NCBI GenBank assembly: GCA_027619595.1
Contig: JAQCHP010000017.1
Span: 1-50,939 of the forward strand
Source of the DNA: Planctomycetota bacterium
GTDB taxonomy: Bacteria; Planctomycetota; Planctomycetia; Pirellulales; Pirellulaceae
Direction: 5' to 3'
DNA: 50,939 nucleotides
Below, piece after piece: positions 18,458-44,958 of this stretch. Position numbers and translations under genes: made by a program. How positions within the stretch are numbered: the stretch's first letter is position 1; each line of letters begins with the position of its first letter. The notes under the pieces are model-generated. The model did no database searches and had not been told where the DNA came from. It worked only from the letters and a program-made list of their open reading frames with translations.

Positions 18458-18525
18458 TCACTTTGCGCATTGCGTGAGTGACTTTCCCTACAATTCTTGC
18501 CCCTCAACTCGAGGGTATCGCAGCA

Positions 18526-20166
18526 ATGAAAATCGTGATTGTGGGTGGCGTTGCGGGCGGCGCGTCGGCGGCAGCGCGAGCCCGCCGACTCCAGGAAAAT
18601 TGCCACATTGTCATCTTCGAACGGGGAAAAGATCCGTCATTCGCCAATTGCGGAATGCCGTATTATATTGGCGGAGAAATCCAAGAACGGAACAAGTTGC
18701 TGGTCGCGCCCGTGGCTCGACTGCGTGAACGGTATCAGTTGGACGTTCGCACCGAGACGCAAGTGGAATCGATTGACCGTCACGCCAAGACGGTTCGTGC
18801 ACGCAACTTGGCCTCCGGCGAATGTTATGATGAGCCCTACGACAAGCTTATCTTAGCTACCGGCGCAATGCCCCTACGACCACCCCTACCGGGGATTGAT
18901 GGCGCCGGGATTCATACGTTGCGCGACCTGGGCGATGCCGACCGTATTTACAAGATCGTAGGTGAGGGCGCGCGGTCTGTGGTCATCGTCGGTGCGGGCT
19001 TTATCGGCATGGAAATGGCCGAAAATTTGGTCCGGCGGAATCTAAACGTTTCGGTCGTGGAACTCGCAAATCAAATCCTGCCACCTTGGGACCGCGAAAT
19101 GGTCCTCGATCTTACCAAGCACCTCGAATCGGAAGGGGTAAAACTCTACCTGAACGCATCCGCGCAATCGTTCCGATCCGGCAAGGGTGGTGTTCAAATT
19201 GACCTGTCGACGGGAACTTCCTTACAAGCCGATTTTGTGGTGTTGTCGATCGGTGTCCGTCCCGAAAACACGATCGCCTTGGCTGCTGGGCTGGAGGCCG
19301 GACCGCGGGGTGGCGTGCGCGTTAATGCCAACATGCAAACGGCTGACCCCGACATCTACGCGGTCGGCGATGTTGTCGAAGTCGAGGACGTCGTGAGCGG
19401 CACCCCGACCCAGATCCCACTTGCAGGACCGGCGAACCGCCAAGGTCGGATCGCGGCTGATCATTGTGCTGGCCGAGACTCGCGATATCGAGGCACGCAA
19501 GGGACGGCCATCGTCGGACTCTTCGGAAAAACAGCTGCAATGACCGGGCTGAGCGAAAAAACGTTGCAACGTCTCGGTCTGCCCTACGAAAAGATTTACA
19601 TTCACCCGACGCATCATGCGGGATATTACCCCGGCGCGGAGGCCCTCACCCTGAAGCTACTATTCGACCCCACTACGGGAAAGGTCCTTGGTGCACAGTG
19701 CGTCGGTGGATTAGGTGTCGACAAACGCATCGACGTGCTGGCCGTAGCAATCCAGGCCCAAATGACCGTCTTTGACTTGGAGGAAATGGAGCTTTGTTAT
19801 GCTCCCCAATTCGGTTCCGCCAAAGATCCTGTCAACATGGCCGGTTTTGTGGCGGCAGGACTTTTGCGTGGCGATCATCCGATCGTACATGCCGCAGAGT
19901 TAGCAACGCTTTACGAAAGCGGAACCCAAATTATCGATGTGCGAACACCACAAGAATTTAATCAAGGGCACGTGCCCAATGCCCTGAACATCGAAGTCGA
20001 CCAGCTACGACGTCGGTTGCCTGAAATTGAAAACCAGCGACCTGTTGTTTGCTACTGCCAAGTAGGAATGCGCGGTTATCTCGCCACCACGATTCTTCGG
20101 CAGCGAGGGTTTTCAGCTCGCAACCTCTCGGGAGGCTATACGAGCTACAGGCAATGGTTGAGTTAG
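18526..20166 (+). CDS. CoA-disulfide reductase-type flavoprotein fused to rhodanese
   Basis: A 546-residue FAD/NAD(P)H enzyme. The N-terminal IVGGVAGGASAAARARRL binds FAD. The redox Cys is in SFANCGMPYYIGG (about residues 38-50), the signature of CoA-disulfide reductases and NADH oxidases. GAGFIGMEMAENL is the NAD(P)H site, and IYAVGDVVEV the second FAD contact. After the dimerisation domain a rhodanese domain begins near residue 460 (IIDVRTPQEFNQGHVPNALNI) with active loop CQVGMR. The fusion matches CoADR-RHD proteins that reduce CoA disulfides or persulfides, linking it to sulfur or redox homeostasis. The ATG at 18526 follows GAGGG; a start at 18478 is rejected because it adds residues before the FAD motif. 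Confidence 0.9.
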   Translation: MKIVIVGGVAGGASAAARARRLQENCHIVIFERGKDPSFANCGMPYYIGGEIQERNKLLVAPVARLRERYQLDVRTETQVESIDRHAKTVRARNLASGECYDEPYDKLILATGAMPLRPPLPGIDGAGIHTLRDLGDADRIYKIVGEGARSVVIVGAGFIGMEMAENLVRRNLNVSVVELANQILPPWDREMVLDLTKHLESEGVKLYLNASAQSFRSGKGGVQIDLSTGTSLQADFVVLSIGVRPENTIALAAGLEAGPRGGVRVNANMQTADPDIYAVGDVVEVEDVVSGTPTQIPLAGPANRQGRIAADHCAGRDSRYRGTQGTAIVGLFGKTAAMTGLSEKTLQRLGLPYEKIYIHPTHHAGYYPGAEALTLKLLFDPTTGKVLGAQCVGGLGVDKRIDVLAVAIQAQMTVFDLEEMELCYAPQFGSAKDPVNMAGFVAAGLLRGDHPIVHAAELATLYESGTQIIDVRTPQEFNQGHVPNALNIEVDQLRRRLPEIENQRPVVCYCQVGMRGYLATTILRQRGFSARNLSGGYTSYRQWLS

Positions 20167-20271: not shown

Positions 20272-21675
20272 TCAGGCATCGATCTGAGATGCAATGATTT
20301 CGTACATCGCTTGCAGGTAGGTTTCGGCCTCGTCACACGGCATGACAAGTGGCGGCGCGACACGTAGTACCTTGCCAGCCAACGGGCCTAACAAGTGAAG
20401 GCTGTGCCCATGGCTATCGCCAAGGTAACAGCCCTCGACAATTCTCCGGGCCACTTCTGCCGCTGTTGCCGACGACGTGCCAACGCATTCCACGCCCCAC
20501 ACAGTGCCCTCACCACGTACGGCAGAAATCGTGGGTAATTCCGTCAATCGTGACAATCCACGGTGCAGCACCGCGGAAAGCGCATGGGAGCGGTCCACGA
20601 CGGGGGCCGATTCGAATTCGTCGAGAGTCGCCAAAACGGCCGCACATCCTAGTGGATGGGCGCTCCAAGTATCGGAACCTTCTCCATACTTTAGTGCTTG
20701 AAAAATATCGGCGCGTGCAACGGCCGCATTTACCGGAATTCCATTCCCCATGCCTTTACCCAAAACAACGATGTCGGGTTCCACTCCATAAGTCGTATAC
20801 GCGTACATGGAACCCGTTCGGCCAAAGTTCGCCTGGACCTCGTCCAAAATAAACACAAGATCGTGCGTTCGACAAAATTCCTGCAGTAGCTGCAAGTACT
20901 CTATCTGGGGATGGTACGAACCACCCCCTCCCAGATACGGTTCGGTAATGAGGCAACACAGACGTTGACCGTAGGTATGGACGAGGCTGTCCAGCTCGCG
21001 ACGGTGGGACGTCAAGTCCAAGGGCCGTTGCCGACGTTGCCAGGAATTGCAAGCGTCTCGTGGAAAGTCAATAAACCGTACTCGCGGGTCACGCTCACGA
21101 TCTTGCTCGCTGCCTGTCACGGCACCTGACAGTCCCTTCTTGCCGTGAAATCCGTGTCGTGTCGCCAGGATGATGTCAGATCCCTTCCGGAATTCCAAGG
21201 CCGCCCACAATGCTTTCTGCACCGCCTCACTACCGCTGGCCGCCCACATGACCTGTTCTAAACGCTGTCCACCCACTTCTGCACGCAGACTCTTGAGCAA
21301 TCGCGTGGTGGCTTCGCATTCTAAATGCGTGATCGCGTTGTAAGCATTGAGCGGTACACCACGCAAGAACGGGGCATCACCGTTGGGCGATGATAACCCC
21401 ATATAATTGAGCACTCGCTGCCACCATCGTTGCGGATAGTGACCGAGATTGGTGACGAGGACACCCGACGTAAAATCGGCTAATTTTCGACCGTCTGCGG
21501 TGTAGTGGTAGCACCCTTCACTTTTCTCGATCACAGCCAAACTTGGTGTATACGTACGCAGTGCCCGTGGCTCAATCTTCGACGTCTCCACCCGAATGCG
21601 ATTGGACTCGTCTTCTCCAAAGAAGAATGGCAGTACTGCTTCAGGCTGAATCGCAGGAGTCTTTGCAGTTTTCAT
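20272..21675 (-). CDS. Class III PLP-dependent aminotransferase
   Basis: A 467-residue omega-aminotransferase-type enzyme. PLP features: ASGSEAVQKALWAA (phosphate-binding region, about 146-159), the HGFHGKKG aromatic/His segment, Asp278 in FILDEVQANFGRTG, and Lys307 in VVLGKGMGNGIPV as Schiff-base lysine. Family relatives act on acetylornithine, GABA, beta-alanine or glutamate-1-semialdehyde; I cannot choose. GAGG lies 6 bases upstream of the ATG. It is the last gene of a minus-strand group containing a GT2, a GT-C-like membrane protein and a Gfo/Idh/MocA oxidoreductase, which makes an amino-sugar or lipid-amine donor role possible but unproven. Confidence 0.88.
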   Translation of the reverse strand: MKTAKTPAIQPEAVLPFFFGEDESNRIRVETSKIEPRALRTYTPSLAVIEKSEGCYHYTADGRKLADFTSGVLVTNLGHYPQRWWQRVLNYMGLSSPNGDAPFLRGVPLNAYNAITHLECEATTRLLKSLRAEVGGQRLEQVMWAASGSEAVQKALWAALEFRKGSDIILATRHGFHGKKGLSGAVTGSEQDRERDPRVRFIDFPRDACNSWQRRQRPLDLTSHRRELDSLVHTYGQRLCCLITEPYLGGGGSYHPQIEYLQLLQEFCRTHDLVFILDEVQANFGRTGSMYAYTTYGVEPDIVVLGKGMGNGIPVNAAVARADIFQALKYGEGSDTWSAHPLGCAAVLATLDEFESAPVVDRSHALSAVLHRGLSRLTELPTISAVRGEGTVWGVECVGTSSATAAEVARRIVEGCYLGDSHGHSLHLLGPLAGKVLRVAPPLVMPCDEAETYLQAMYEIIASQIDA

Positions 21676-21729
21676 GTTGGCCTCACCGTCCTTTTGGGTT
21701 TCAGCACCGTAACTCGCTTAGACCCGATT

Positions 21730-21757
21730 TGACATCCCAGTGGTGACATCCCAGTGC
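21730..21757. repeat. 14-bp direct tandem repeat, two copies
   Basis: TGACATCCCAGTGG followed at once by TGACATCCCAGTGC, in the 114-base gap between the oxidoreductase and the aminotransferase genes. Two copies differ only in the last base. It may be a simple duplication or a paired binding site; it lies 55-82 bases upstream of the aminotransferase start. Confidence 0.7.
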
Positions 21758-21789
21758 CCCGTTGATTGTCGTCGTTTCGAATCATCGCG

Positions 21790-23079
21790 TCAAACTTGTC
21801 CAGCATACAACGGATGCGGTTCGGACTTACCTGGTAGGTAAAGCGATAGACCACCGTGTGAATCATTTACTCGCACAACGCCATCCGGGTACCCCTGTGC
21901 GTGAGCGGTCAGCAGGCTCTCCATGGCCTGCACGGCTGCTACGACCTGTCGGTCACTGGCGAGTTCATTATAGTTGCGTTCGGCCATCGATTTTAGTCGG
22001 CTGTTTCGGTCGGATGCACTGCCACCGTGCTCCACATAGGCAACTTCACGCATGAACTGTTCGATCGCTTCCACACCGTACCCACGTCGCGTTGTCTCGT
22101 TCCAGGGTTCCAGAAATGCAGCGCTGTAGTGGTTGTTCAGCGAGATCTTAAAATCGGTTGGAGTACGATCTTCGATGGTACATTCGACTCCGCGACGCCG
22201 GCCATGCGCCAGCCACACTCCGTTGTCGAAGCGAAATTGCACCTCCTGTTCCACATAGCCAGGGAAATTATTTGGCGTGACCCAACTCGTATGGATATCA
22301 AACGTCGCGTCTCGTCCCGATTCGTATCGGTAGTTGAGTCTCAGCTGTGTCGAGTCCCACGTATTGCCGGTAGCAGGTCCAACAATCCCGCGTTGCCCTG
22401 AACACTGGACGCTCAACAGCTTCCCACCGAACGTGAAATCAATCAGTTTAATGTAGTGAACGGCGACGTAGGTTCCCGGGTTGCGTCCCTGAATCCATTC
22501 GGAAAATTGATTGGATGAAATCGATTTGGGTTCCAATAACGAGCAGTAACCGTGATTGACATGCCTCAGGCTTCCGTTCATGACCAGCGTCCTGAGCCGC
22601 TTATGATCGGGATCCAGCAGCTTGTGATAGACAACTTTGGCTAACACTTTGTTTGATTGGGCTACGGCGACAAGTTCATCGAGTTGTGACAACTCAAGTA
22701 CGGATGGCTTTTCGATAAGTACATGTTTTCCGGCACGAAGGGCTCGCAGGGCGATGTCAAAATGTCGGTCATCAGGGGTCGCCACGCAAACCACGTCCAC
22801 CGGATGTCGCAACAGATCATCCACGGAATTTTCCCCACAATAGCTGGAAAAATCCGGTAACCTACCTGCCAATTTTTGGCGACAGGCCTCCACGCGACTG
22901 CCCGTCCGGCTGGCCACTGCCGCCAACGTAACTTCGCACACTCCGTGGGCTCGGTCGTAGATGGGCCGACGCCATACCGTCTCAAAAAAAGGCTCGTAGG
23001 TATCGCTAAAGATCATGCCCAGGCCGACCATTCCCACGCGCAAACCGCCTAGCGAACGATCGTGATCGACGGAGTTCAT
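21790..23079 (-). CDS. Gfo/Idh/MocA family oxidoreductase
   Basis: A 429-residue NAD(P)-dependent oxidoreductase, longer than usual. The Rossmann fingerprint appears as VGMVGLGMIF (about 14-23), followed by the family DVVCVATPDDRHFD and VLIEKPSVLEL (EKP motif). The C-terminal domain shows VAVHYIKLIDFTFGG in the region of the active-site His. There is no leader, so the enzyme should be cytosolic. AGGA lies 10 bases before the ATG. It sits between a GT-C-like membrane protein and the class III aminotransferase; oxidation of a sugar hydroxyl followed by amination would fit the order, but this is inference. Confidence 0.88.
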   Translation of the reverse strand: MNSVDHDRSLGGLRVGMVGLGMIFSDTYEPFFETVWRRPIYDRAHGVCEVTLAAVASRTGSRVEACRQKLAGRLPDFSSYCGENSVDDLLRHPVDVVCVATPDDRHFDIALRALRAGKHVLIEKPSVLELSQLDELVAVAQSNKVLAKVVYHKLLDPDHKRLRTLVMNGSLRHVNHGYCSLLEPKSISSNQFSEWIQGRNPGTYVAVHYIKLIDFTFGGKLLSVQCSGQRGIVGPATGNTWDSTQLRLNYRYESGRDATFDIHTSWVTPNNFPGYVEQEVQFRFDNGVWLAHGRRRGVECTIEDRTPTDFKISLNNHYSAAFLEPWNETTRRGYGVEAIEQFMREVAYVEHGGSASDRNSRLKSMAERNYNELASDRQVVAAVQAMESLLTAHAQGYPDGVVRVNDSHGGLSLYLPGKSEPHPLYAGQV

Positions 23080-23124
23080 GCTGATTTATCCTGACAAGTT
23101 AGATCCGCAAATGTTCGCAACAGA

Positions 23125-24447
23125 TCACTTCGCAATCCAGCCCTGCGCGACACCGTAACTGTAGGGCCATGGATTCACCCATGGATTGGGCCAACCGTAG
23201 GCAGCCGAGAACGTCGATATTATAAGGAAAATTGCACACACGAGACGGGAACGTGAAGACGACGCCAGTACGTCGACCCCTCGAATCATGCTCACCAGCG
23301 CCAGCGGTGTGAGCCAAAACAACCAACGCAGACCACACGTGACGCCTCCGTAGTTACGGTCAATTTCAGGACGAGTGACATAGAACCCAACGCACACGAT
23401 GGCCAAAGTCAAAGTGACAGCGGAGATCCATCTCAACAGGATATCCTCTTGCGACCGGAGTCCAAGCCGTATGCCCCAGGCCGAAATGCACCAAATTGGC
23501 GTCAACGTGAATAGACCGTGATGACCTATCAATACGTGGAAAAGGTACACAAGTTGAGATGGTTCGCCACGATCTGGGCCGCTACGCGCCCCGGTCCAAT
23601 ACGATCCTGGATAATCGTACCATTCGCGATGGCTGTAGGCGACGCGCCAGTCGCCGTGGGCAATAAAATTGGTGACAAAAAAGGCCACGGCGATCAGTAA
23701 GGCCGCTGGCAGGAAGTAGAACACCAAATTGCGCAGCTGGTGCCAGCCCAGCCAGCCTACGATCAAGCAGAAGAATGCGAGGGCTGGCAATTCGCACGCA
23801 ACCGCAAAAGCCGAACTGCAACCTGCCAGAATCCAAACCCATCGGGTATCGCTACCATCTCGAATCCGCCACAGGCAATAGAGTGTCACCATCACACATA
23901 CTGCTGCCGGCAAGTGATTGTTGAACGTAACCGCAAACGTCGTGAGGAAGGTCGCCCAACAGCCAGCCGTAACAACAAAGACCCGTCCCCAGTCGGTCTG
24001 GCCCCACCTTTCGACGAGATAGGCTAAGACGACGAGATAGACCGTGAGCGCAGGTATATTTGTCAACCAGATCAGTGCTCGACCCAGTATGAATGGATGT
24101 TCTTCCAGACGAAGTCCAGTGACACGCTGAATGAGCCAATATCCGCCCGCCGCGATGGTTGGCAAGAGGGGGGGCTTACTTGAATAAAAATGGGGTACCC
24201 CATCCCGGTCAGAGTGCCGTACCTTGTCGATTGTTTGCCAACTTCCGTTCGCCTGAAACCGATCAATCACGTACGTGCCGTCGTCGACCAACGCAACCAC
24301 GGTCGACCAGCGACTGCGATCGTTAGCACTGAGAAACGGCGTTTGCTGATCGCGGGCCGTGATGGACATAATGCGGCCCGATGCACCGGCAAGGGCTGAA
24401 CCAATCAAAAGACAATATATCGCTAGTCGCCATTGTGGAGAATTCAA
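23125..24447 (-). CDS. Polytopic membrane protein, GT-C (GT39-like) glycosyltransferase candidate
   Basis: A 440-residue protein with about ten hydrophobic helices. Near residues 75-100 a soluble loop holds DKVRHSDRDGVPHFYSSKPP; acidic and SSKPP-like loops after the first helix are common in GT-C enzymes that take sugars from polyprenyl phosphate. It also has the WG-x-LxLEEHPF-type loop followed by repeated helices. The start is a TTG at 24447 with AAGGA about 10 bases upstream. It lies 13 bases after the GT2 gene, which would make the lipid-linked donor. Assignment rests on topology and context rather than on a decisive motif. Confidence 0.65.
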   Translation of the reverse strand: MNSPQWRLAIYCLLIGSALAGASGRIMSITARDQQTPFLSANDRSRWSTVVALVDDGTYVIDRFQANGSWQTIDKVRHSDRDGVPHFYSSKPPLLPTIAAGGYWLIQRVTGLRLEEHPFILGRALIWLTNIPALTVYLVVLAYLVERWGQTDWGRVFVVTAGCWATFLTTFAVTFNNHLPAAVCVMVTLYCLWRIRDGSDTRWVWILAGCSSAFAVACELPALAFFCLIVGWLGWHQLRNLVFYFLPAALLIAVAFFVTNFIAHGDWRVAYSHREWYDYPGSYWTGARSGPDRGEPSQLVYLFHVLIGHHGLFTLTPIWCISAWGIRLGLRSQEDILLRWISAVTLTLAIVCVGFYVTRPEIDRNYGGVTCGLRWLFWLTPLALVSMIRGVDVLASSSRSRLVCAIFLIISTFSAAYGWPNPWVNPWPYSYGVAQGWIAK

Positions 24448-24460
24448 GACACTTGGATCC

Positions 24461-25438
24461 TTAATTTCCGGAACTCGTCTTTTCTGGATTTTTGCCTACC
24501 CGTTCCGAAACGGAATAGAGACGCGTTTTAGACCAATTGAGCGATGTCACGAGTTCGGCCAAGAATCCCACGGACATGAATTGGCCGCCGAGTAACATCG
24601 CAGCCAGTGAGTAGTAAAAGATTGCACGTTCATGTAGATGCAGAGGATGCTCCCACCCGGGAAGACGCGTAATAAGCCATGCCACGGTCAATCCCATAAC
24701 GCCCACAGTACCTATAACAAAGCACAGCATCCCGAATGCGCCAAACAAGTGTTGTGGTCGGTTACCATATCCGGTGATTAATTTAACCGTCATCAGATCA
24801 AGAAAGCCCTTGGGGATCCTCAAGAGTCCGTATTTCGACACACCAAATTGTCGACGTCGATGGTGCACTTCAATCTCACCGATACGCCATCCTTGCGCTG
24901 CTGCCAGCACGGGAATAAAACGGTGCAGTTCGCCGTAAAGATTTAAGCCCTGGAGTGCTTCAGCTCGGTAGCTTTTGAAGCCACAATTGTGGTCATGCAG
25001 GTGGACACCGGTTAGCCAACTTACCATCCAATTGAAGACTCGTGATGGCCCAACCTTGTGCCAAGGATCGTGGCGGGCGCGTTTCCATCCACTCACCACA
25101 TCGGCACCCTGGTTCAAACGTTGTAAAAAGCGAGGGATTTCTGCCGGATCATCCTGCAAATCGGCGTCCAGAGTGATGATAATTTCTCCGACGGCATTCT
25201 GAAAACCCGCACTCAACGCGGCGGCTTTGCCAAAATTGCGGCGAAAACGGATCCCGCCGACTCGCACATCTGTGGCTGCGATTCTTGTGATGATCTCCCA
25301 CGAAGCGTCACGCGATCCATCATCGACAAATAGGATCTCGACATCGTATCCGTTTTGTTGAGCTACAGCGTCAATTTCGCGGTGCAGGTCGACCAAACTA
25401 TCGGCCTCGTTAAACACCGGAATTACAAGTGACAGCAT
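24461..25438 (-). CDS. Family 2 glycosyltransferase, DPM1/ArnC-like with C-terminal membrane helices
   Basis: A 325-residue enzyme. The GT-A domain begins LSLVIPVFNEADSLVDL and shows VLFVDDGSRDAS and ITLDADLQDDPAEIPRF (metal-binding DAD with the downstream QDDPAEIP typical of polyprenyl-phosphate glycosyltransferases). Two C-terminal membrane helices (about residues 235-260 and 275-298) anchor it, as in ArnC, GtrB and dolichyl-phosphate mannose synthase. Expected reaction: transfer of a sugar from a nucleotide sugar to undecaprenyl phosphate on the inner face of the membrane. The ATG at 25438 starts exactly at the fold; the longer reading from 25585 would overlap the upstream gene by over 100 bases. 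Confidence 0.92.
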   Translation of the reverse strand: MLSLVIPVFNEADSLVDLHREIDAVAQQNGYDVEILFVDDGSRDASWEIITRIAATDVRVGGIRFRRNFGKAAALSAGFQNAVGEIIITLDADLQDDPAEIPRFLQRLNQGADVVSGWKRARHDPWHKVGPSRVFNWMVSWLTGVHLHDHNCGFKSYRAEALQGLNLYGELHRFIPVLAAAQGWRIGEIEVHHRRRQFGVSKYGLLRIPKGFLDLMTVKLITGYGNRPQHLFGAFGMLCFVIGTVGVMGLTVAWLITRLPGWEHPLHLHERAIFYYSLAAMLLGGQFMSVGFLAELVTSLNWSKTRLYSVSERVGKNPEKTSSGN

Positions 25439-25478
25439 CACGATGTCGTGCTCACATGGATCAAAGGGAGTCAGGGGA

Positions 25479-26642
25479 TCAGCGAAACGATGAGGTGCGG
25501 GACGCAGGTCGAGGATGAGCCGCTTTGAGCGATAAGTGCCACAGTCTGCTTGCCGCCATGGCAGCCGCAATGCCTGCCTCAGCACCCAGCCAAATCAACC
25601 GCAACCAAATGGCGGCGATGATCGCGGCCGAGGTTCCTACGGCTGGTGACATGAGTTCTTGCAAGACCCATTCGCGCACAAAGGCTCCACCGGGCAGTAG
25701 CGATACAAATCCTGCTACGACGCTCAGCCCGACCGATGCCGTAAGTCTGGGAAGTAATACAAATGAAATATTCTCGACTTCGGGAATTGGTAATGAGCGG
25801 AGCGCCGCCCAAAAACTAATCCCCAAGAGGAACCAGCCCGGAAGATTCATCAGCCATCCGAGCCCGATCAGGCGTCCGTTCAACGCATCGATCGACTTCT
25901 CGGGTGCCGTCGAACGATTTTTAACGCGAGTGAGAATATGCAATACGATTCGTAATAAGGGCGGCGCCGTGGGGATTCCAGCGATTGCTAACAGTGCTAC
26001 GGCGACGGCCAGCATCGACAAATTGTGGTGTGGGTCGGCATACCAAAGTGACAACGAGAATATCGCTCCGCACGCTGCCCCTACGGCCATCATGGTGAGC
26101 GTCTCCACGAATACGCTCAAGGTTACGAGTCGAATGCTATGACACTGCCCCTGTAATACCGACATGCGTAAAAGTACGACCGTGACTTTTCCGGGCACGT
26201 ACTTGCCCAAATGACTGATGTAATATGCTTGCAAGGTACGGAAAAAGGTCGGCTGTTCACCGACCGCCCACAGCACGCGATACCAAAACACTCCCATGGG
26301 TAGCATTCCGGCCAAATAAGCAATCAGCGACGCTCCCACCCATTGCCAGCGAATCCCCGACCAAGTCACCCCCTTGGTTTCAAGATCTCTCCAAGCCGTG
26401 CCCAGCGAACGGACTACGAACGTACAAACAACCACCGCCAAGGCGAGTTTGCAGAGCGAAAACCAACTGAACCGCGAGCGTGGTGTGCCCGAACGGGAAT
26501 TGAAAGCGGCACGTTCCCCGGCGGTACGTTCAACGGGCGAATCAAGTTGGTCGTCGTGTGCGTGCACGTTTTCGCGTTGCCCGGCTGGGCCTCTTGGACG
26601 CGGGGGGAGCAGGTTTCGTTGTCGACCCGCATTGTCCTGCAT
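25479..26642 (-). CDS. YbhN/LPG-synthase-type transmembrane protein (UPF0104)
   Basis: A 387-residue integral membrane protein of the lysylphosphatidylglycerol synthase TM-region family (YbhN, AglD relatives). A hydrophilic 55-residue N-terminus is followed by about eight helices. YYISHLGKYVPGKVTVVLLRMSVL holds the family motif (Y...GKYxPGK), and SLLPGGAFVREWVLQELM matches the conserved loop near the C-terminus. The ATG at 26642 has AAGGA 7 bases upstream; a GTG at 26657 is an alternative. Members are thought to move or present lipid-linked substrates across the membrane. It is the first gene of the minus-strand cluster ending in the aminotransferase. Confidence 0.86.
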   Translation of the reverse strand: MQDNAGRQRNLLPPRPRGPAGQRENVHAHDDQLDSPVERTAGERAAFNSRSGTPRSRFSWFSLCKLALAVVVCTFVVRSLGTAWRDLETKGVTWSGIRWQWVGASLIAYLAGMLPMGVFWYRVLWAVGEQPTFFRTLQAYYISHLGKYVPGKVTVVLLRMSVLQGQCHSIRLVTLSVFVETLTMMAVGAACGAIFSLSLWYADPHHNLSMLAVAVALLAIAGIPTAPPLLRIVLHILTRVKNRSTAPEKSIDALNGRLIGLGWLMNLPGWFLLGISFWAALRSLPIPEVENISFVLLPRLTASVGLSVVAGFVSLLPGGAFVREWVLQELMSPAVGTSAAIIAAIWLRLIWLGAEAGIAAAMAASRLWHLSLKAAHPRPASRTSSFR

Positions 26643-26737
26643 CCCAATTCCTTTCACAAGGCGAACTTGTGAAGAATGCTCGAATGATCGATATTGTCAC
26701 CTGGCGATGTCCCCACGATTTTAACGGAGAACGGACG

Positions 26738-28447
26738 ATGACTCGGTATGTCTCACTGGCTGCTTTGCTGGCTGTCATCGCTATTATGGGGGTGCTGTCA
26801 TACCGCGTAATGTCAGGTTTTCTTCTGCCGCTGTTCTTGGCGGCACTTCTGGCGGCCCTGTTTCATCCGATCCATCGTCGTTTCCTGCAGACTTGTGGAG
26901 GTCGCTCCACGCTTGCCGCGGGATTGACAACAGGGTTCATTCTCATGGTTGTTCTGCTGCCGGTTGCCGGAGTCCTTGGTCTCGCGTTGTTTGACGCCCA
27001 GCAGACGTTGGCCAATCTGGCTAAGGACAAGGACCAGATCGACCAAAAACTCAAAGACCTACTGGACAATGCCGGACTAAGCATCCCATTCGCCCCCACC
27101 ATACAGCAGATCCAAGCGGAATTCCAACGCATTCACAACGATGCAATTCGCGATCAGGTTGGGCTACCGCTATCGACTCTCGACAAAGCATTTTGCCCTC
27201 ACGTCAATGAGCTGGACCGACGCATGAAGGAGGAATTGGCTCGAGTAAAACAGTTGTTACCGGCAAATCCGGAACACGAAACTCGCAGTTGGTTCGCATG
27301 GGCATCGCCTGTTTCGGACGTCAACTTATATGTCGATCCGTTATACAACGACAATGATCATCCGGAAATCACTTGGGAAAAATCGGAAGCCTCCCGGGTT
27401 GTGCAATTGCTGCGCAACCCGACAGTCCTGAAGCAGTTCAACGATAATTTGCAACAGTTGGAGAAGCTTTGCTCGACGATGCAAGACGCCATCGTCCAAC
27501 AAGACACCACTGGCTATCGCGTTGCTATTGTGGAAGCCGAGGCACGATTTCAAACGATCCAGTCGATCCTTCTCGGCAGTTCACTTCGCGGTCCCATCGT
27601 GCAGGCTGTCAACCCAAGCAAGTCTCAAATCGAATCGTGGGTACTGGCGGGACGAGACCAACTACAAAACTGGCTGCCGTCGATCACTGGGCAGGCAACA
27701 TCGATGATGGTGCAGCTACTGGTAGGTGCGGGTATCATGACGATAGCCATGTTTTATTTTCTAGCCGATGGTTCCGCCATGATTCGAGCCGCGATGCGAC
27801 TGTCGCCGTTGGATGACCGGTACGAAGCGGAGTTGCTTCGCGAATTCGACACTGTCAGTCGTGCCGTTGTGATGGCGACGCTCTTGTCGGCACTGGCGCA
27901 GGGGATCTTGGCCGCGATCGGATATTTTGTGGCCGGGGTGGAAAAGACTGTCTTGATGACGTTGATGACCACCGTCCTGGCGTTGGTTCCTTTTGTCGGA
28001 GCCTCTGTCGTGTGGGTACCCGTTTGCCTCTGGTTAGTATTTGTCGAACAGCGCATCGTCGCCGGCGCGGGGCTGGCACTTTATTGTGCGAGTGTGGTAA
28101 GCACGGTGGACAACCTGATAAAGCCTTACATTCTCCAGGGCCAGTCTCGACTCCATCCGCTGTTGGCACTCCTGAGCGTTTTAGGAGGTGTCCAAACACT
28201 CGGACCGGTGGGCCTTATCGTGGGGCCTATGGTGGTGTCCTTCCTGCAAGCGCTACTGAATATGCTGCGCAGCGAAATATCGGAAATCGAAGCAGCCGCA
28301 ACGCCCGACGGCCAATTGCCACCGGTCAAAGTTGCCTCCGTCATTTCCGTAACGAACGCTGCCCATTCCGTTGCGACTACAGTCCCATTGGCACCCGAAC
28401 CAACGTTAAAATCGCCGTCGCCTACCGACCCAACTCCACCCAGTTGA
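26738..28447 (+). CDS. AI-2E family (PF01594-type) membrane protein with large insert
   Basis: A 569-residue protein, clearly longer than the usual 340-400 residues. Two N-terminal helices (about 5-40) and a third at about 65-85 are followed by an insert of some 250 hydrophilic, helical residues. After it come the typical C-terminal helices with MIRAAMRLSPLDDRYEAELLREFDTV, QGILAAIGYFVAGVEKTVLMT and LIKPYILQGQSRLHPLLALLSVLGG, which are characteristic of the family. A Pro/Ser/Thr-rich tail ends the protein. The ATG at 26738 has GGAG about 10 bases upstream. The family includes exporters and Na+/H+ antiporters; the name does not prove autoinducer transport. It is divergent from the YbhN-type gene. 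Confidence 0.88.
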   Translation: MTRYVSLAALLAVIAIMGVLSYRVMSGFLLPLFLAALLAALFHPIHRRFLQTCGGRSTLAAGLTTGFILMVVLLPVAGVLGLALFDAQQTLANLAKDKDQIDQKLKDLLDNAGLSIPFAPTIQQIQAEFQRIHNDAIRDQVGLPLSTLDKAFCPHVNELDRRMKEELARVKQLLPANPEHETRSWFAWASPVSDVNLYVDPLYNDNDHPEITWEKSEASRVVQLLRNPTVLKQFNDNLQQLEKLCSTMQDAIVQQDTTGYRVAIVEAEARFQTIQSILLGSSLRGPIVQAVNPSKSQIESWVLAGRDQLQNWLPSITGQATSMMVQLLVGAGIMTIAMFYFLADGSAMIRAAMRLSPLDDRYEAELLREFDTVSRAVVMATLLSALAQGILAAIGYFVAGVEKTVLMTLMTTVLALVPFVGASVVWVPVCLWLVFVEQRIVAGAGLALYCASVVSTVDNLIKPYILQGQSRLHPLLALLSVLGGVQTLGPVGLIVGPMVVSFLQALLNMLRSEISEIEAAATPDGQLPPVKVASVISVTNAAHSVATTVPLAPEPTLKSPSPTDPTPPS

Positions 28448-33204: not shown

Positions 33205-34455
33205 TTAGGTGTCCGTCACGGGCGGGATCACAAGATCGTCTCGCGGCCCTACCGCGCAAGTTGCGTTACGGCTGAGGCCATACCTTTCGATCACACGATG
33301 GACATCGTCCAAGGTCACGGCGCGGTAGCGCGCGACTGTCTCCGCGACCGTCAGATACGAGCGACGCTGGATCCAGCCATTGCCAACAGAAAACATCCGA
33401 CTGGAAGGTCGTTCGGCGCGGAGCACCACATGCGAACACGCCTTGTTTTTTGCCAGTTCGAGTTCTTCCGCCGTCACAAATTCGCTTTCTACTTGCCGCT
33501 GTACATCCAACACCCGCTGTAGATTTTCGGAGGCATCGTCGGGTTCACAACAAAGATAGCTCATATTCATCCCAGCACCTTGGAATTCGTGCGAAGAGAT
33601 GCCGGCGTATTCTGCGCGTCCCGAGTCGACTAAATCCCAGTAAAGCCGACTACTGGTATCATCACCTACAATCATCGTCAGCAATCGATTGGCATAGCGC
33701 TGCGGATCGGTTGCATCGGGTGCGGCGCCAATTTGAATGATATATTGCTGCGTGGCTTGTTCGCGTCGTTCTTGTCGTGACGCGCAAAGATGTCGAGCCG
33801 ACGAAGCGGACCGTTGGGTGATGAATGGCTCCCAAGTTCCGCACCATTTTTCCAAATCGCGTTCGAGTCGATCGAAATCGACTCGGCCTGCGGCGGCGAA
33901 CACGATATTTGAAGGGCTATATCGAGCGCGGAAGTAGTCTCGCATCTGGGCGACGGTAAGCGCTCCGACCGACTTCTCGGTCCCCAAAATGCTATTGGCC
34001 AACGGGTGACCTTGAAAAAACAGCGCCATACATTTTTCATGTGCGCCGTAAGGCGGCTGATCATCGTACTTGCGAATTTCTTCGATAATCACTTTTTTTT
34101 CGGTTTCGAAATCCGAATCTCGCAGTTCCGGACGCATGATATCGGCCAGCAACTGGGTAGTTTGCGACTGCAATTCGGGCAGCACCGTAGCGTAATAGAC
34201 AGTTTGCTCTTCGCTGGTATAGGCATTCGAATTTGCACCTAGTTCGTCCAGCTCAAGATTAACATCGGCCGCCGAACGGGTGGGCGTGCCCTTGAAGACC
34301 ATGTGCTCCAGAAAATGACTCACTCCCGACACCGACTCGGGTTCGTCCCGCGCTCCGGCCCGCACAAAAAAGGCCAGCGAGGTTGAATAGGCGTGTGGAT
34401 TACATTCGGCGACGATTTCGAGGCCGTTTTCCAGCCGGGAATTACGAAACTCCAT
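33205..34455 (-). CDS. M16 family zinc metallopeptidase, active subunit
   Basis: A 416-residue M16B-type peptidase. The inverted zinc motif HXXEH is present as HFLEH (in GVSHFLEHMVFKGT, about residues 46-59), with the distal Glu in ELDELGANSNAYTSEEQTVYY and the TEKKVIIEEIRKYDD region. The second half is the catalytically empty M16 C domain. The ATG at 34455 overlaps the end of the preceding M16 gene by 14 bases, with GGAG 6 bases upstream, so the pair is coupled. No leader is seen, so it is likely cytosolic. Paired M16 proteins form heterodimers; the substrate is unknown. Confidence 0.9.
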   Translation of the reverse strand: MEFRNSRLENGLEIVAECNPHAYSTSLAFFVRAGARDEPESVSGVSHFLEHMVFKGTPTRSAADVNLELDELGANSNAYTSEEQTVYYATVLPELQSQTTQLLADIMRPELRDSDFETEKKVIIEEIRKYDDQPPYGAHEKCMALFFQGHPLANSILGTEKSVGALTVAQMRDYFRARYSPSNIVFAAAGRVDFDRLERDLEKWCGTWEPFITQRSASSARHLCASRQERREQATQQYIIQIGAAPDATDPQRYANRLLTMIVGDDTSSRLYWDLVDSGRAEYAGISSHEFQGAGMNMSYLCCEPDDASENLQRVLDVQRQVESEFVTAEELELAKNKACSHVVLRAERPSSRMFSVGNGWIQRRSYLTVAETVARYRAVTLDDVHRVIERYGLSRNATCAVGPRDDLVIPPVTDT

Positions 34456-35740
34456 TGGGTATCTCCAACGGTTGTGCCCCCAGGGTGACGACGGTAAATC
34501 CTTGAGGTGCATTTCCAGCGAGATAGGCATTGATGCTATCGCAGGATAACGCGTCGACTTTTCTACCGATTTCCTGCAGGGTCCGCACCGATTGCAAATG
34601 AAACCAATCTCCCGCGATCGACCCAGCGCGGGACGACGAGGACTCTTGTTGCATGATGAGATTGCTCTTGATTCTGGCCTTCAACCGCCTCAATTCTTCG
34701 GGCTGAATCCCCTCGCGGAGGCGGCGTAGTTCATACAGCAACACGTCCAGCGTTTGCTGCGCCAGTTCGGTGCTCGTTCCGGCATAGCACATTACTGCGC
34801 CGCGGTCCCTCAAGGAATGACACGACGCAAAGACGCTGTAAGCGAGCCCCCGATTTTCACGTACTTCGGTGAACAGACGGGAACTCATGCCATCGCTCAA
34901 CACACCCACGGCTCCACGGGCTTCGTAATAGTCCGGATGCGAATACGGTACGGAATCGTAACTCACCGCGATTTGCGTTTGCGCTGAATCGTGAGGCAAG
35001 TGTACGTGGGTCTCGCCGCGGGCTCCGCTCACCAGTGGCGGCGAATCCCGGGGCGTCCAGTCACCAAACAGTCGCTCGGTCAAAGACCGTAAATCGGGCC
35101 AAGAAAATTTGCCCGCTACAGCGAGCACCGCACCGCGTGGCTGGTAATGTTGTGCAAAAAAAGCCTGCACATCGTCCAACTTGGCAGCCATGACCCCTGC
35201 TAGGTCGCCTGTGCTGGGACGCCCCCAAGGGGATGGATATTGGCACCGACGGAGTTCCAGCATGACGCGCTGAGCCAAATCATCCTCCAGGGCACGTAAC
35301 TCCTGTAGGCAAACCTGACGGCCGTCTTCAAATTGGTCCGCGGGTAAGTGGGGACGTCGCACCAAATCGGCGTAGATTGCCAGTGCCGCCGGCAGTCGCT
35401 CGAAGGGCATCGCCGCGCCGTAGGTCGTATGGGATGACGAAACACCACACGATCGTTCGACCCCCAGGCCATCTAACTCCTCGATAAACTGACGACTATC
35501 ACGGGAACCACATCCCCGTTGCACCATTTCACAGGCGAAATTACTCAGCCCTAATCGATCCCCGGGATCCAAGACGCATCCCGCCGGCAGTAACAGGCAA
35601 AACGAGACCGATTCGAGCCAATCCATGCTCTCGGCCAACACGACCATCCCATTGGCAAGCTCATGCACCTGAATGTTGTCGGACCGCTCAAGCCTCGAAA
35701 CAATGGGTGATGAATCAGCCGCCGGTGAAGAATCTGCCAT
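34442..35740 (-). CDS. M16 family peptidase-like protein, inactive subunit
   Basis: A 432-residue M16 homologue in which the zinc motif is lost: where HXXEH should be, the sequence is LSNFACEMVQRGCG. The rest of the fold is kept: MVVLAESMDWLESVSFCLLLPAG, RRPHLPADQFEDGRQVCLQELRALEDD and the YYEARGAVGVLSDGMSSRLFTEVRENRGLAYS segment with the substrate-binding R/Y pair of the C domain. Inactive M16 partners complete the chamber of an active partner, here the downstream gene that it overlaps. The ATG at 35740 is preferred over one at 35818 because the extra residues contain a Cys-rich, non-homologous start. Confidence 0.88.
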   Translation of the reverse strand: MADSSPAADSSPIVSRLERSDNIQVHELANGMVVLAESMDWLESVSFCLLLPAGCVLDPGDRLGLSNFACEMVQRGCGSRDSRQFIEELDGLGVERSCGVSSSHTTYGAAMPFERLPAALAIYADLVRRPHLPADQFEDGRQVCLQELRALEDDLAQRVMLELRRCQYPSPWGRPSTGDLAGVMAAKLDDVQAFFAQHYQPRGAVLAVAGKFSWPDLRSLTERLFGDWTPRDSPPLVSGARGETHVHLPHDSAQTQIAVSYDSVPYSHPDYYEARGAVGVLSDGMSSRLFTEVRENRGLAYSVFASCHSLRDRGAVMCYAGTSTELAQQTLDVLLYELRRLREGIQPEELRRLKARIKSNLIMQQESSSSRAGSIAGDWFHLQSVRTLQEIGRKVDALSCDSINAYLAGNAPQGFTVVTLGAQPLEIPNGVS

Positions 35741-35916
35741 GGAACAGCGCAAAGGGTTGTAAGGTACGGCCAAGGGAGCAGCGATACGCAACTCGACACT
35801 ACAATCTCGACAATACAACTCTGTCGAAACACTTCTGTCGAAACTACACTTATCCCTGCCGGCCGACGAATGGAATCGGCTCCGAGTCTATGGCAGTTTC
35901 TATTGCAGTCGACGTC

Positions 35917-41053: not shown

Positions 41054-41203
41054 GTCCGACTGTGCTAGGGAGGGCACGTGCAGCTGGCAAGTTCGGCTGC
41101 CGGTGGCAGTAAGGCGAAATTGCGATGAGGTCATCTGATCGCATCGTTCGCCGTGGCCTGTGTGCGGACCCTTGCCTTACCGCTTGAACCACAGGAGCCA
41201 TCG

Positions 41204-43099
41204 GTGTCTCACGCCGCAGGATCACCTCTATCGCTGCAAGATGCCAAAGAGCGGATTCGACAGTCGATTGACATTGTCGAGTTGGTTGGTCGGTATCTGG
41301 AATTACGGCCTCAGGGTCGTATTTTCGTGGCGCTTTGCCCGTGGCATAACGATTCGCGACCAAGCCTGCAGGTCAATCCCGAAAGGCAATCGTGGAAATG
41401 CTGGCCCTGTGATTTAGGGGGCGATATTTTCAGCTTCGTAATGCAACAAGAGGGTGTCGAGTTTGGTCAGGCTTTGCGGATCCTCGCCGAGATCACCGGC
41501 ATAGCTCTCGCGCCTACTCGTGCCTCGTCCCATTCGGCTGGTACCGATAAGGATGTGATGTACCGCTTGAGTGCTTGGGCAGAGGCGCAGTTTCACGATT
41601 GCTTGGTCGATCAAAGCGATGGCCAGGAGGCCCGTGAATACCTGCAAGAACGTGGTATCAGTCATGACAGTATTGCTCGCTATCGGATTGGTTATTCCCC
41701 CGCTTCCTGGCAGTGGATTGTTGATCGAGCTAGGAATACGGAATTTTCCACAGAGGCGCTAGAAAAAGTCGGGATCGTCTGCCGTAGTCAAAGGAGTGGT
41801 AAGCACTTTGATCGGTTTCGCGGTCGTGCAGTTTTTCCTATCCGCGATCCCATGGGTCGAACGATTGCGTTTGGTGGTAGGATTTTGCCTAAGCACAAGA
41901 CGGACGACCAGACGGCGAAGTACGTCAATAGTCCAGAGTCACCGCTGTATTCGAAAAGCCATCAGCTTTACGGTCTCGACGTCGCCCGCGACGCCATTCG
42001 CAAAAAAGGCGAAGTGGTCGTCATGGAGGGATACACGGATGTTGTGGCGGCTCGGCAAGCCGGGTTGCTCAATGGTGTGGCTGTTTTGGGTACTGCTCTC
42101 ACTGCCTTTCACCTGCAGCTTTTGCGAAGATTCTGCGATCGTGTTGTGCTGCTGTTGGATGGTGACGAAGCGGGCCAACGCCGTACGAACGAGATTCTTG
42201 AGCTGTTTGTCGCACAGCAGGTTGACCTCCGGATCGTGACGCTACCGGAAGGCCTTGATCCGTGCGACTTTGTTCATCAACGCGGAATAATCGCCTTGGA
42301 AACCGAAATTGCTCAGGCAAAAGATGCCTTGGAGCACAAAATGACCACTGTGATGCAGGGTCTTGATCCGCGGCGCGACACGCACCAAATTCATCAATCG
42401 CTCGAAGAGTTGCTGGGGCTGATGAGTCGTGCTCCTCGTCACGTGGCGTCAACTGGCCAGGGCATGCAGCTTCGCGAGCAGCAGATCCTGACACGTCTTT
42501 CCCGCCAATTTCAATTGCCGGCAGAGGACCTTCGAAAGCGTCTGAATGACCTGCGTCGTAAGTCGCCAGCATCATCAGCAGCACGGCCTCGGCGTCCAGA
42601 GGATCGTCGGCAACTTCTGCAGGATCTTGGTGCCATGGAGCGTGAGTTGCTGGAGTTATTGACTCAATATCCTGAGGCTATGGACGTCCTGCGTTTAGAG
42701 CTTGATGTACGTGAGATTCATTCTGCTCCGGCTCGTGAGATCTATGATGTCTATCTCGAATTCGCCGAACAAGGACAGATTGGCGAATTTACCCGTGTGT
42801 TGGCCAGTTTCGACTCGCCCCTGATGAAGAATTTACTCGTGGAAATTGATGAGGCGGCAGCAGCGAAATGGCAAAGGGCCATTTCGGACGGCATGTCGGC
42901 CAATGCGGCTTCGCCTCAAGAACGGTTGCAAGCGTTGGTGGCAGCGTTGCACCGAGGTCGCGCCGATCAGGAAAGAACGTCGCTGACACGCGTGCTCGAC
43001 AATGACACTTTGGATGAATCTGAAGAAATTCGTTTGCTCAAGAGTTTGTGTGAGCAGCAAAAAAATCGGCAAGGAATTTCAGCGCCCACGGAAGGGTAG
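41204..43099 (+). CDS. dnaG: DNA primase
   Basis: A 631-residue primase that makes RNA primers for replication. The N-terminal zinc finger is [14 protein letters not shown] ... CWPC (CHC2 type). The catalytic core shows [22 protein letters not shown] and the TOPRIM motifs [17 protein letters not shown] and [10 protein letters not shown] with the metal-binding acidic residues. The C-terminal helicase-interaction region is helical. The GTG at 41204 is chosen because AGGAG lies 7 bases upstream; a GTG at 41153 would add 17 residues. rpoD follows 103 bases downstream, as in the classical macromolecular synthesis operon, though rpsU is not present here. Confidence 0.95.
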
Positions 43100-43122
43100 C
43101 TCCTCGTCGTCCTACGCGACTC

Positions 43123-43139
43123 CGTCGCCCGCAAGGCGA
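43123..43139 (+). promoter_or_regulatory. Hairpin between dnaG and rpoD
   Basis: GTCGCC, loop CGCAA, GGCGAC: a 6-bp GC-rich hairpin in the 103-base spacer. No T tract follows, so it is not a terminator. In E. coli the dnaG-rpoD spacer holds an RNA processing site; a similar role is possible here but not shown. Confidence 0.4.
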
Positions 43140-43187
43140 CCCAACGGAATGCGTGGGGAATTGTTCCCGTATTGCGCACGAAGCTGC

Positions 43188-43195
43188 AAGGAGGA
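43188..43195 (+). promoter_or_regulatory. Strong Shine-Dalgarno of rpoD
   Basis: AAGGAGGA, 7 bases before the ATG at 43203. It is the best ribosome binding site in the window and fixes the rpoD start against a longer open frame that begins inside dnaG at 43002. Confidence 0.85.
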
Positions 43196-43202
43196 TACGA
43201 AC

Positions 43203-44846
43203 ATGGGTTATATCGACACCGAACTAACGACTTTGGTCCGAAAAGGGTGCGATCAAGGTTATCTGACCTATGACGATGTTAACGCATATCTGCCCGATGA
43301 AGACGCCAACCCTGAAAAGGTCAACAGCCTTCTACTAGCGTTGGAAGAGCAGGGGATTGAACTCGTCGAACAATCTTCCAAAAAAGACGATCCAACGGTG
43401 GCCAAAGGTGCCGGCGACGACGTTCAATTCGATCCCACGTTGCCGCTTCGTCCGGAAGAACTCTCGAAGATCAGCAGCGATCCCATCCGCATGTATCTTT
43501 CGCAGATGTCGGGAATTCCACTGTTGACGCGCGAAGAAGAAGTGGCTTTGGCCAAAAAGATTGAAGTGACTCGCAAGCGTTTCCGTCGATCGATCCTCAG
43601 CTGCCAGTTCACGATGCGTGCAACGGTAGAAACACTGGAACGGGTTTACCAAGGTGACCTCCCGTTCGACCGCACGATCAAGGTTTCGTTGACCGAGCGA
43701 GTGACCAAGGAGCAGGTTCTGGCGCGGATGCCTCATAATTTGCGGACGCTGCGTCATCTCATGAACGAAAACGATCGAGATTTTCAGCTCCTGATTAGCA
43801 AATCGACCGGTGCCGAAAAAAGATTGGAAGTCCGACGTAACTTGATCCGTAGGCGCCACCGTTGCCTCCAATTGGTCGAGGAAATGAGTCTGCGTACGCG
43901 TCGAGTGCAACCGTACCTGCGACAAATGGAAGACTATGCGACGCGAATTGACGAGGTGGTGAAACGCCTGCGAAATCTTCCGGCGGGCACGATGCATAGT
44001 CAGGACCGCCAGGAACTGCGCCAGCAGCTCAAGGCTCTTTTGCTGGTAACCCAAGAAAGCCCGCGCAGCTTGCGTTTGCGACTCGACCGTTGTCAGCGTG
44101 AATTCCGGATGTATGAACATGTCAAGCGACAGCTCTCGAGCGGTAACTTGCGGCTGGTGGTCTCTATTGCCAAACGGTATCGAAATCGTGGACTTAGCTT
44201 CTTGGACTTGATTCAGGAAGGGAATACCGGGTTAATGCGTGCCGTGGACAAATACGAGTATCGCCGCGGTTTCAAGTTTTCCACCTATGCAACGTGGTGG
44301 ATCCGGCAGGCGATCACCCGTGCGATTGCTGACCAGGCGCGCACGATCCGCATCCCCGTCCATATGATTGATGTCCTGTCCCGCCTCAGGAACGTCCAGA
44401 AGAAACTGCAACAGGAATTGCGGCGTGAACCGTCGAGTGCCGAAATTGCCGATCGGGCCAACCTATGTGTCGATGAAGTTCGTCGCGTGATGGACATGGG
44501 GCGTCATCCGGTCAGTCTCGATCGGCCAGTTGGCGAAAGTGAGGACAGTGCGTTTGGTGAGTTCATTGAAGATCACACCAGCGACAATCCGGTGCGGAAT
44601 GCTTCCAACAGCGTTTTGCGTGACAAGATCGAAAACCTGCTAAAAACACTTACGTATCGCGAACGAGAAATTATCCGTCTACGGTACGGGCTGGGAGACG
44701 GCTATACCTACACGCTGGAAGAAGTTGGCAGAATCTTCCGAGTAACCCGCGAGCGGGTGCGGCAAATTGAAGCTAAGGCCGTCAGCAAGCTGCGGCACCC
44801 TGTCCGTAGTCAACAGTTGGAGGGATTTCTCCGCCAAGCAGGCTAA
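43203..44846 (+). CDS. rpoD: RNA polymerase primary sigma factor (sigma-70 type)
   Basis: A 547-residue group 1 sigma factor. The N-terminus ([21 protein letters not shown]) is region 1.1. Region 1.2 is [23 protein letters not shown] non-conserved insert of about 190 residues follows. Then come regions 2.1-2.4 ([40 protein letters not shown]), region 3 ([11 protein letters not shown]) and region 4.2 ([24 protein letters not shown]), which reads the -35. It should direct most transcription in the cell. Start fixed by AAGGAGGA. Gene order with dnaG supports the primary sigma assignment. Confidence 0.95.
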
Positions 44847-44958
44847 CGAAGTCTTTTCGGAAATTTCGAAATCGACATTCGTGATAGTGTGTATGTTCGT
44901 AGCCGTTTCCAGCCTTTCGGGCAGTGAACGGTTACGTTCATTTTATGGGGTCCGTAGA

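Follow-up and report, generated by a model that had tools for sequence, protein, structure and literature searches.

Five adjacent genes of a planctomycete locus, including an ArnC-type glycosyltransferase and a class III aminotransferase, probably represent two independent gene modules

The analyzed stretch of DNA (50,939 nt of Planctomycetota bacterium contig JAQCHP010000017.1, hereafter called the window) carries five tightly packed minus-strand genes between positions 20272 and 26657, which a preliminary description had interpreted as one Arn-like sugar cluster of unusual composition. All five open reading frames (ORFs) were present in the order given there, and its assignment of their products to the YbhN, ArnC-like GT2, GT-C-like, Gfo/Idh/MocA, and class III aminotransferase families was right. 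The first gene in the direction of transcription (25479–26657) codes for a polytopic protein of the YbhN/UPF0104 type, which matched the Pfam family LPG_synthase_TM (PF03706) with 40.4 bits at a cut-off of 33.4; the coordinates given are those of the longest possible ORF, and the true start may be located further in. It is followed by a family 2 glycosyltransferase (GT2) of the ArnC/GtrB/DPMS type (24461–25438; Glycos_transf_2, PF00535, 109.5 bits), whose ORF as listed (24461–25585) is overlong at its start, the ATG at 25438 being the start found in relatives, and by a GT-C-like integral membrane protein of 440 amino acids (GTC; 23125–24447) that carries the motifs NDRSRW and YSSKP and resembles the LA_3751/LA_3752 family. 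These three genes are referred to as module A. A junction of 45 bp (23080–23124), which was seen in no other genome examined, separates them from module B, which consists of a Gfo/Idh/MocA dehydrogenase from a highly conserved clade (Gfo; 21790–23079; GFO_IDH_MocA, PF01408, 77 bits) and a class III pyridoxal phosphate (PLP)-dependent aminotransferase (AT; 20272–21675; Aminotran_3, PF00202, 239.2 bits). From YbhN to AT, the intergenic gaps measure approximately 40, 13, 45, and 114 bp.

The distribution of these genes was determined in 60 genomes comprising the window's own (G000), 36 from the same family, and 23 from the same order. GTC was matched in 59 and YbhN in 55 of these genomes, compared to 27 for AT and at least 22 for Gfo, the latter count being possibly too low with at most 29 candidates scored per genome. 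AT was found near GTC in one of the 26 genomes having both, which is the window's own, and on a different contig in the other 25; likewise, Gfo was near GTC in one of 21 genomes having both, again the window's own, and on different contigs in the others. Within the modules, GTC and YbhN were at most 10 kb apart in 36 of the 55 genomes having both, and AT and Gfo in 15 of 22. Because many of the genomes are drafts, the surroundings of module B (11–20 kb) were also read at 117 loci totaling 1.53 Mb. Twenty of these loci stem from 19 relatives (L078–L097), 80 are named loci (L118–L197; the best 80 of 223), and 17 were obtained by a search of the phylum (L201–L217) in which five candidates were scored, compared to at most 29 per genome in the Gfo search; at least eight of the first 20 are the same places as named loci and thus were counted twice. 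Neither GTC nor YbhN was found in the 117 loci at an E value of 1e-6, and GT2 matches occurred in three of them (L210, 52%; L215, 53%; L167, 34%). Since the two conserved units are separate in the relatives as well as in these loci, the five genes are best regarded as two modules that were found side by side only in the window's genome. The reading preferred here, to which a probability of roughly 0.8 is assigned, is that two independent modules, YbhN-GT2-GTC and Gfo-AT, became neighbors in this lineage. The scattering of genes in relatives, which the preliminary description had named as a finding that would speak against its proposal, thus was observed between module A and module B, so that neither a single conserved five-gene cluster nor a link of the dehydrogenase and the aminotransferase to the Arn-like membrane half found support.

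Several observations weigh against this separation. In drafts, location on different contigs need not mean that two genes are far apart, and many of the 117 loci are short. The modules themselves are not always intact: GTC and YbhN are more than 1 Mb apart in four and on different contigs in 15 of the 55 genomes, AT and Gfo are on different contigs in seven of the 22 genomes having both, an AT does not follow Gfo in 25 of the 75 named loci with room for it, and Gfo is missing from seven of the 17 phylum-search loci. In 16 genomes of family f21, which belongs to the same class, GT2 and GTC were both present yet never neighbors, and because of this family the three-gene order of module A is not universal. 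One genome with no AT match (G031) has GTC 4 to 6 kb from the genes for QueF and a xylose-isomerase-like TIM barrel protein (C22:139818–148402), both of which were also found around module B elsewhere (see below). Furthermore, the five genes in the window could form one transcript, a possibility that arises because they are tightly packed on the same strand; a scan for promoters and terminators gave values close to those of shuffled sequence and was uninformative. Finally, in genus g65 (G146, G164) AT is closely followed by an orthologous ArnC-type GT2 in the same orientation, at a distance of about 20 bp in L215 (8713–11168) and about 0.95 kb in L210 (7389–10791).

The tight same-strand packing and the adjacency of GT2 and AT in genus g65 would fit an alternative in which the five genes form one operon for a new pathway, with Gfo oxidizing a sugar nucleotide, AT aminating it, GT2 loading the product onto undecaprenyl phosphate, and GTC passing it to an outer-membrane lipid or glycan. 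A precedent for its first two steps is provided by the gnnA/gnnB dehydrogenase and aminotransferase, which make a lipid A amino sugar in other organisms (PMC7663294). This alternative is nevertheless quite unlikely in view of the 25 genomes with AT and GTC on different contigs, the absence of GTC and YbhN from the module B loci, and the much wider distribution of both genes than of AT. Even in genus g65, GTC is located elsewhere in the genome and no Gfo occurs in the 20 kb read around AT. One Arn-type five-gene pathway was consequently rejected for lack of conservation, and the earlier proposal of a new route to a lipid- or glycan-linked amino sugar from these genes is not supported. A rough estimate, which was not a formal computation, puts the likelihood that a second AT-GT2 neighborhood arises by chance among the genomes examined at a few per cent, and because of the neighborhood in g65 a link between AT and a polyprenyl GT2 retains a low probability. 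It is very unlikely that AT was recruited to an ArnC-type GT2 here and separately in g65, in which case an amino sugar formed by a non-DegT enzyme would be transferred to undecaprenyl phosphate and from there to the planctomycete envelope; a lineage-specific route of this kind to a lipid-linked amino sugar is regarded as unlikely. The five-gene case illustrates that neighbors in a single genome can mimic a pathway, and the separation into two modules removes the tempting but improbable reading of one new Arn-type amino-sugar operon.

The origin of the juxtaposition was addressed by phylogenetic analysis of the module B proteins. In the AT tree (63 rows, 57 of them different), the window's copy belonged to a well-supported group of 19 rows (100/96), the others being 15 verrucomicrobial ones, L140, L189, and L191 (Lacipirellula limnantheis). 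The Gfo tree, in which bootstrapping did not reach convergence, grouped the window's Gfo with three verrucomicrobial rows at weaker support (91/86). The placement of the window's copy is unsure because its branches are long. The simplest reading is that the pair was transferred, or is of separate descent, and then would have been inserted beside module A. The source genome consists of 281 contigs and the junction was found in no relative examined, which would fit a chimeric assembly. However, the stretch spanning the junction (22980–23240) had one match in the genome, namely itself, leaving no repeat to explain a false join, and the two sides have a similar G + C content at third codon positions (GC3, 0.572 versus 0.594), which is weak evidence. 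An assembly error thus is not indicated, a misassembly caused by repeats found no support since the junction sequence has no second copy in the genome, and a chimera is considered very improbable.

Module A occurs as an uninterrupted YbhN-GT2-GTC row in 15 of 20 loci chosen by the authors. In the window it is flanked by a divergent gene for an AI-2E family transporter (26558–28447, plus strand; PF01594), the listed start of which overlaps that of YbhN, and relatives of this transporter adjoin YbhN in 10 of the 20 module A loci fetched. When the GT2 profile was compared with PDB sequences, the nearest solved structures were those of ArnC (9hwj, 1.1e-66), followed by GtrB-type sll0501 (5eke, 1.1e-41) and DPMS (5mlz, 1.8e-27). 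ArnC was also the best match among the NCBIfam families, with 184.5 bits compared to an equivalog cut-off of 529; the GT2 alignment (A2) omits four of 17 rows (L101, L105, L110, and L111). GTC best matched the NCBIfam family of LA_3751/LA_3752 putative glycosyltransferases with 40.9 bits at a cut-off of 200. This family was matched by 25 of 28 GTC proteins at an E value of 0.001, with the window's protein below the curated cut-off, and a literature search on the family yielded nothing to the point. No Pfam family was found for the window's GTC at an E value of 0.05, and the 28 members gave single weak matches to six Pfam families, with PMT_2 and GT87 each in one member. Comparison with PDB yielded chance-level matches only for GTC and no match for YbhN. 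A simple scan revealed six hydrophobic segments in GTC, and in an alignment of the window's protein with 27 of 38 matches (A1; the others were mostly duplicates or partial) the motifs NDRSRW (positions 42–47) and YSSKP (88–92) were invariant in all 28 sequences. The first periplasmic loop of ArnT contains the motifs RYA and YFEKP, and Tyr43 and Lys69 are required for its activity (PMC5377068). The GTC motifs are putative counterparts of RYA and YFEKP.

For the membrane half of the locus, the Arn-like character proposed in the preliminary description thus found support, with GT2 nearest to ArnC among solved structures and putative counterparts of the ArnT first-loop motifs in GTC. By analogy, the three genes of module A probably function in the manner of ArnC/ArnT or AglD/AglS and probably serve to attach a sugar to a membrane lipid. 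In such a scheme, GT2 would use a nucleotide-activated sugar to charge undecaprenyl phosphate at the cytoplasmic side, the lipid-linked sugar would be moved to the outer side with the YbhN-type protein as candidate flippase or helper, and GTC would hand it to an acceptor in the envelope. Module A represents a testable, putative lipid-linked sugar unit whose GTC gene is present in nearly all genomes searched.

Module B is a highly conserved pair of the Planctomycetes and Verrucomicrobia, the two groups named in the titles of its records, and offers a second testable unit. Of the 75 named loci with room for it, 50 carried AT downstream of Gfo at a distance of at most 1 kb. The AT and Gfo distances were correlated (r = 0.80; 63 rows with at least six duplicates), and none of 500 permutations gave a value as high. 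Mean column identity was 68% for Gfo (alignment A4, the window and 37 of 57 rows) and 64% for AT (alignment A3, comprising the window's sequence and 26 of the 29 rows chosen). Of the 80 named loci, 30 encode a xylose-isomerase-like TIM barrel protein (TIM) and 19 encode a GntR regulator, which was of the FCD type in the one case tested with Pfam. Among the 17 phylum-search loci, Gfo adjoins AT in 10, TIM is near in eight, and GntR in six. Across the phylum sample, AT was found in 18 of 294 genomes including the window's own. The TIM barrel gave weak PDB matches only, namely Art22 and AsbF. A search of open-licence PMC literature revealed no described function for the Gfo-AT pair. In L191, L189, and L140, two further proteins judged by eye to be Gfo/Idh-like precede the pair, one of which has a signal-like start in L191; these additional proteins suggest a sugar-related context.

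Genes of queuosine synthesis were found around module B in a part of the loci. QueF was present in 14, QueE in 12, and QueC in five of the 80 named loci; in L119, L126, L136, L142, L148, L154, L168, L170, L192, and others, QueF/QueE, in some cases QueC, a TadA-like deaminase, and a nucleoside-hydrolase-like protein adjoin Gfo-AT in two arrangements. In addition, 14 of 27 genomes have AT or Gfo no more than 10 kb from TIM or QueF. Such proximity could mean that module B is tied to 7-deazaguanine or queuosine metabolism, an explanation that is highly improbable for three reasons: TIM (56/60), QueF (58/60), and QueA (59/60) are near-universal while AT is not (27/60), TIM and QueF are within 10 kb of each other in 21 of the 29 genomes that have both and lack AT and Gfo (30 of 55 among all genomes having both), and neither the 16 loci titled as verrucomicrobial nor the 17 phylum-search loci yielded any Que genes. 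Because the TIM-QueF linkage persists without AT and Gfo, the pair seems often to have been placed at an old TIM-QueF locus. In the window's genome, contig C219 carries TIM and QueF at a distance of 68 bp, and Gfo-AT is located elsewhere, beside module A. A role of module B as replacement of QueA in queuosine synthesis was rejected in view of the nearly universal presence of QueA.

Both enzymes of module B have the hallmarks of their families. AT has a class III fold (structure model with a pLDDT of 83.7, the fold matches listed being class III type enzymes), and D278, K307, and R438 were invariant in alignment A3; we take these residues to be the class III aspartate, lysine, and C-terminal arginine, respectively. 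In fold and sequence, its neighbors are racemases of amino acids and transaminases of GABA, ornithine, and putrescine. The motifs HGR and GEGG of the three best-aligned GABA-type transaminases are replaced in AT by HGKK and GGGG; the Arg and Glu at these positions presumably have a functional role in GABA-type transaminases. AT was also considered as an orthologue of ArgD or GabT and rejected as such, as the 25 NCBIfam matches listed (of 69) were all below their cut-offs, with a best score of 207.8 of 574. The seven other AT homologs found in the window's genome share at most 33% identity with it, and clear orthology to a housekeeping amino-acid enzyme, which would have undermined the earlier proposal, thus was not found. 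Gfo contains a Rossmann domain and the EKP motif (E123, K124, and P125, invariant in alignment A4), and its structure model (pLDDT 83.9) matched glucose-fructose oxidoreductase (GFOR) and levoglucosan and inositol dehydrogenases. Most of the 50 Foldseek matches listed for Gfo were dehydrogenases of sugars or cyclitols or relatives without an assignment, and the list included GnnA, KanD2, and GenD2 at 14–20% identity as well as phthalate-diol dehydrogenase and biliverdin reductase.

Based on these models, the authors read module B as a system for amination or deamination of a keto-sugar or cyclitol, with the chance that its substrate is a sugar or cyclitol put at about even. Acting on a sugar, sugar acid, or cyclitol, Gfo would interconvert alcohol and ketone, and AT would interconvert this ketone and the amine with an amino acid as partner, in either direction. 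The evidence from AT does not favor a sugar substrate, no sugar aminotransferase label being present among the 50 Foldseek matches listed for AT. Within the two-module reading, module B could instead act on a non-sugar compound, with AT as an omega-amino-acid or amine transaminase and Gfo reducing or oxidizing its keto partner in a GntR-regulated catabolic route. The transaminases and racemases nearest to AT are consistent with this possibility, as is the GntR regulator in some of the named loci, of the FCD type where tested, which hints at a catabolic role. It is still somewhat unlikely, since the fold neighbors of Gfo are mostly sugar and cyclitol enzymes and AT deviates from GABA-type transaminases in the two motifs mentioned above.

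Other genes in the window include a CoA-disulfide-reductase-like enzyme with a C-terminal rhodanese domain (18478–20166, plus strand; 456 bits compared to a cut-off of 579) and two M16 peptidase genes in a row (33205–35818, minus strand), whose listed ORFs overlap by 89 bp. A DnaG primase, a sigma-70 family factor, and an M3 peptidase are encoded in a row at 41153–47166 (plus strand), the first two of which we take to recall the classical macromolecular synthesis operon.

Among known systems, the ArnC/ArnT part of the 4-amino-4-deoxy-arabinose (Ara4N) route resembles module A by combining an ArnC-type GT2 with a polytopic protein in which RYA and YFEKP have putative counterparts. ArnT is characterized by these two motifs, 13 helices, and a C-terminal periplasmic part; GTC differs in having RW and YSSKP instead, without variation among its 28 sequences, and with its 440 amino acids offers no room for the C-terminal part. 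Furthermore, none of the five genes codes for a deacetylase, ArnA, or a DegT-type ArnB as in the Arn cluster, the aminotransferase being of class III (PF00202). The AglD/AglR/AglS system of Haloferax volcanii shares with module A the scheme of charging, flipping, and transfer, as a polyprenyl-phosphate sugar is made at the cytoplasmic face, moved across the membrane, and transferred (PMC3871713). In contrast to module A, the archaeal carrier is dolichol phosphate, and the flippase or helper is AglR, a role that might be taken by the YbhN-type protein here. In the gpgSDF cluster of Pseudomonas aeruginosa, a YbhN/UPF0104 protein, GpgF, likewise adjoins a glycosyltransferase and is described as a predicted, unverified flippase (PMC12713373); there, however, GpgS is of the GT4 type and acts on phosphatidylglycerol.

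For module B, the closest parallel in reaction sequence is gnnA/gnnB, in which NAD-dependent oxidation of a sugar is followed by transamination (PMC7663294). The GnnB homolog described there belongs to the DegT/DnrJ type and not to class III, and Gfo and GnnA share 17% identity in the fold alignment. With GenB1 and its relative Neo18, the AT of module B has in common that they are class III PLP enzymes, and the GenB enzymes aminate an oxidized sugar; they differ in that their site of action is C-6' of aminoglycosides, following a flavin dehydrogenase (PMC4039129), and neither was named among the 50 fold matches listed for AT. The preliminary description had seen a possible novelty in the presence of a class III enzyme instead of a DegT enzyme. 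Because sugar-aminating class III enzymes are already known in the form of GenB1 and its relative, an aminotransferase of this class is not in itself a new kind.

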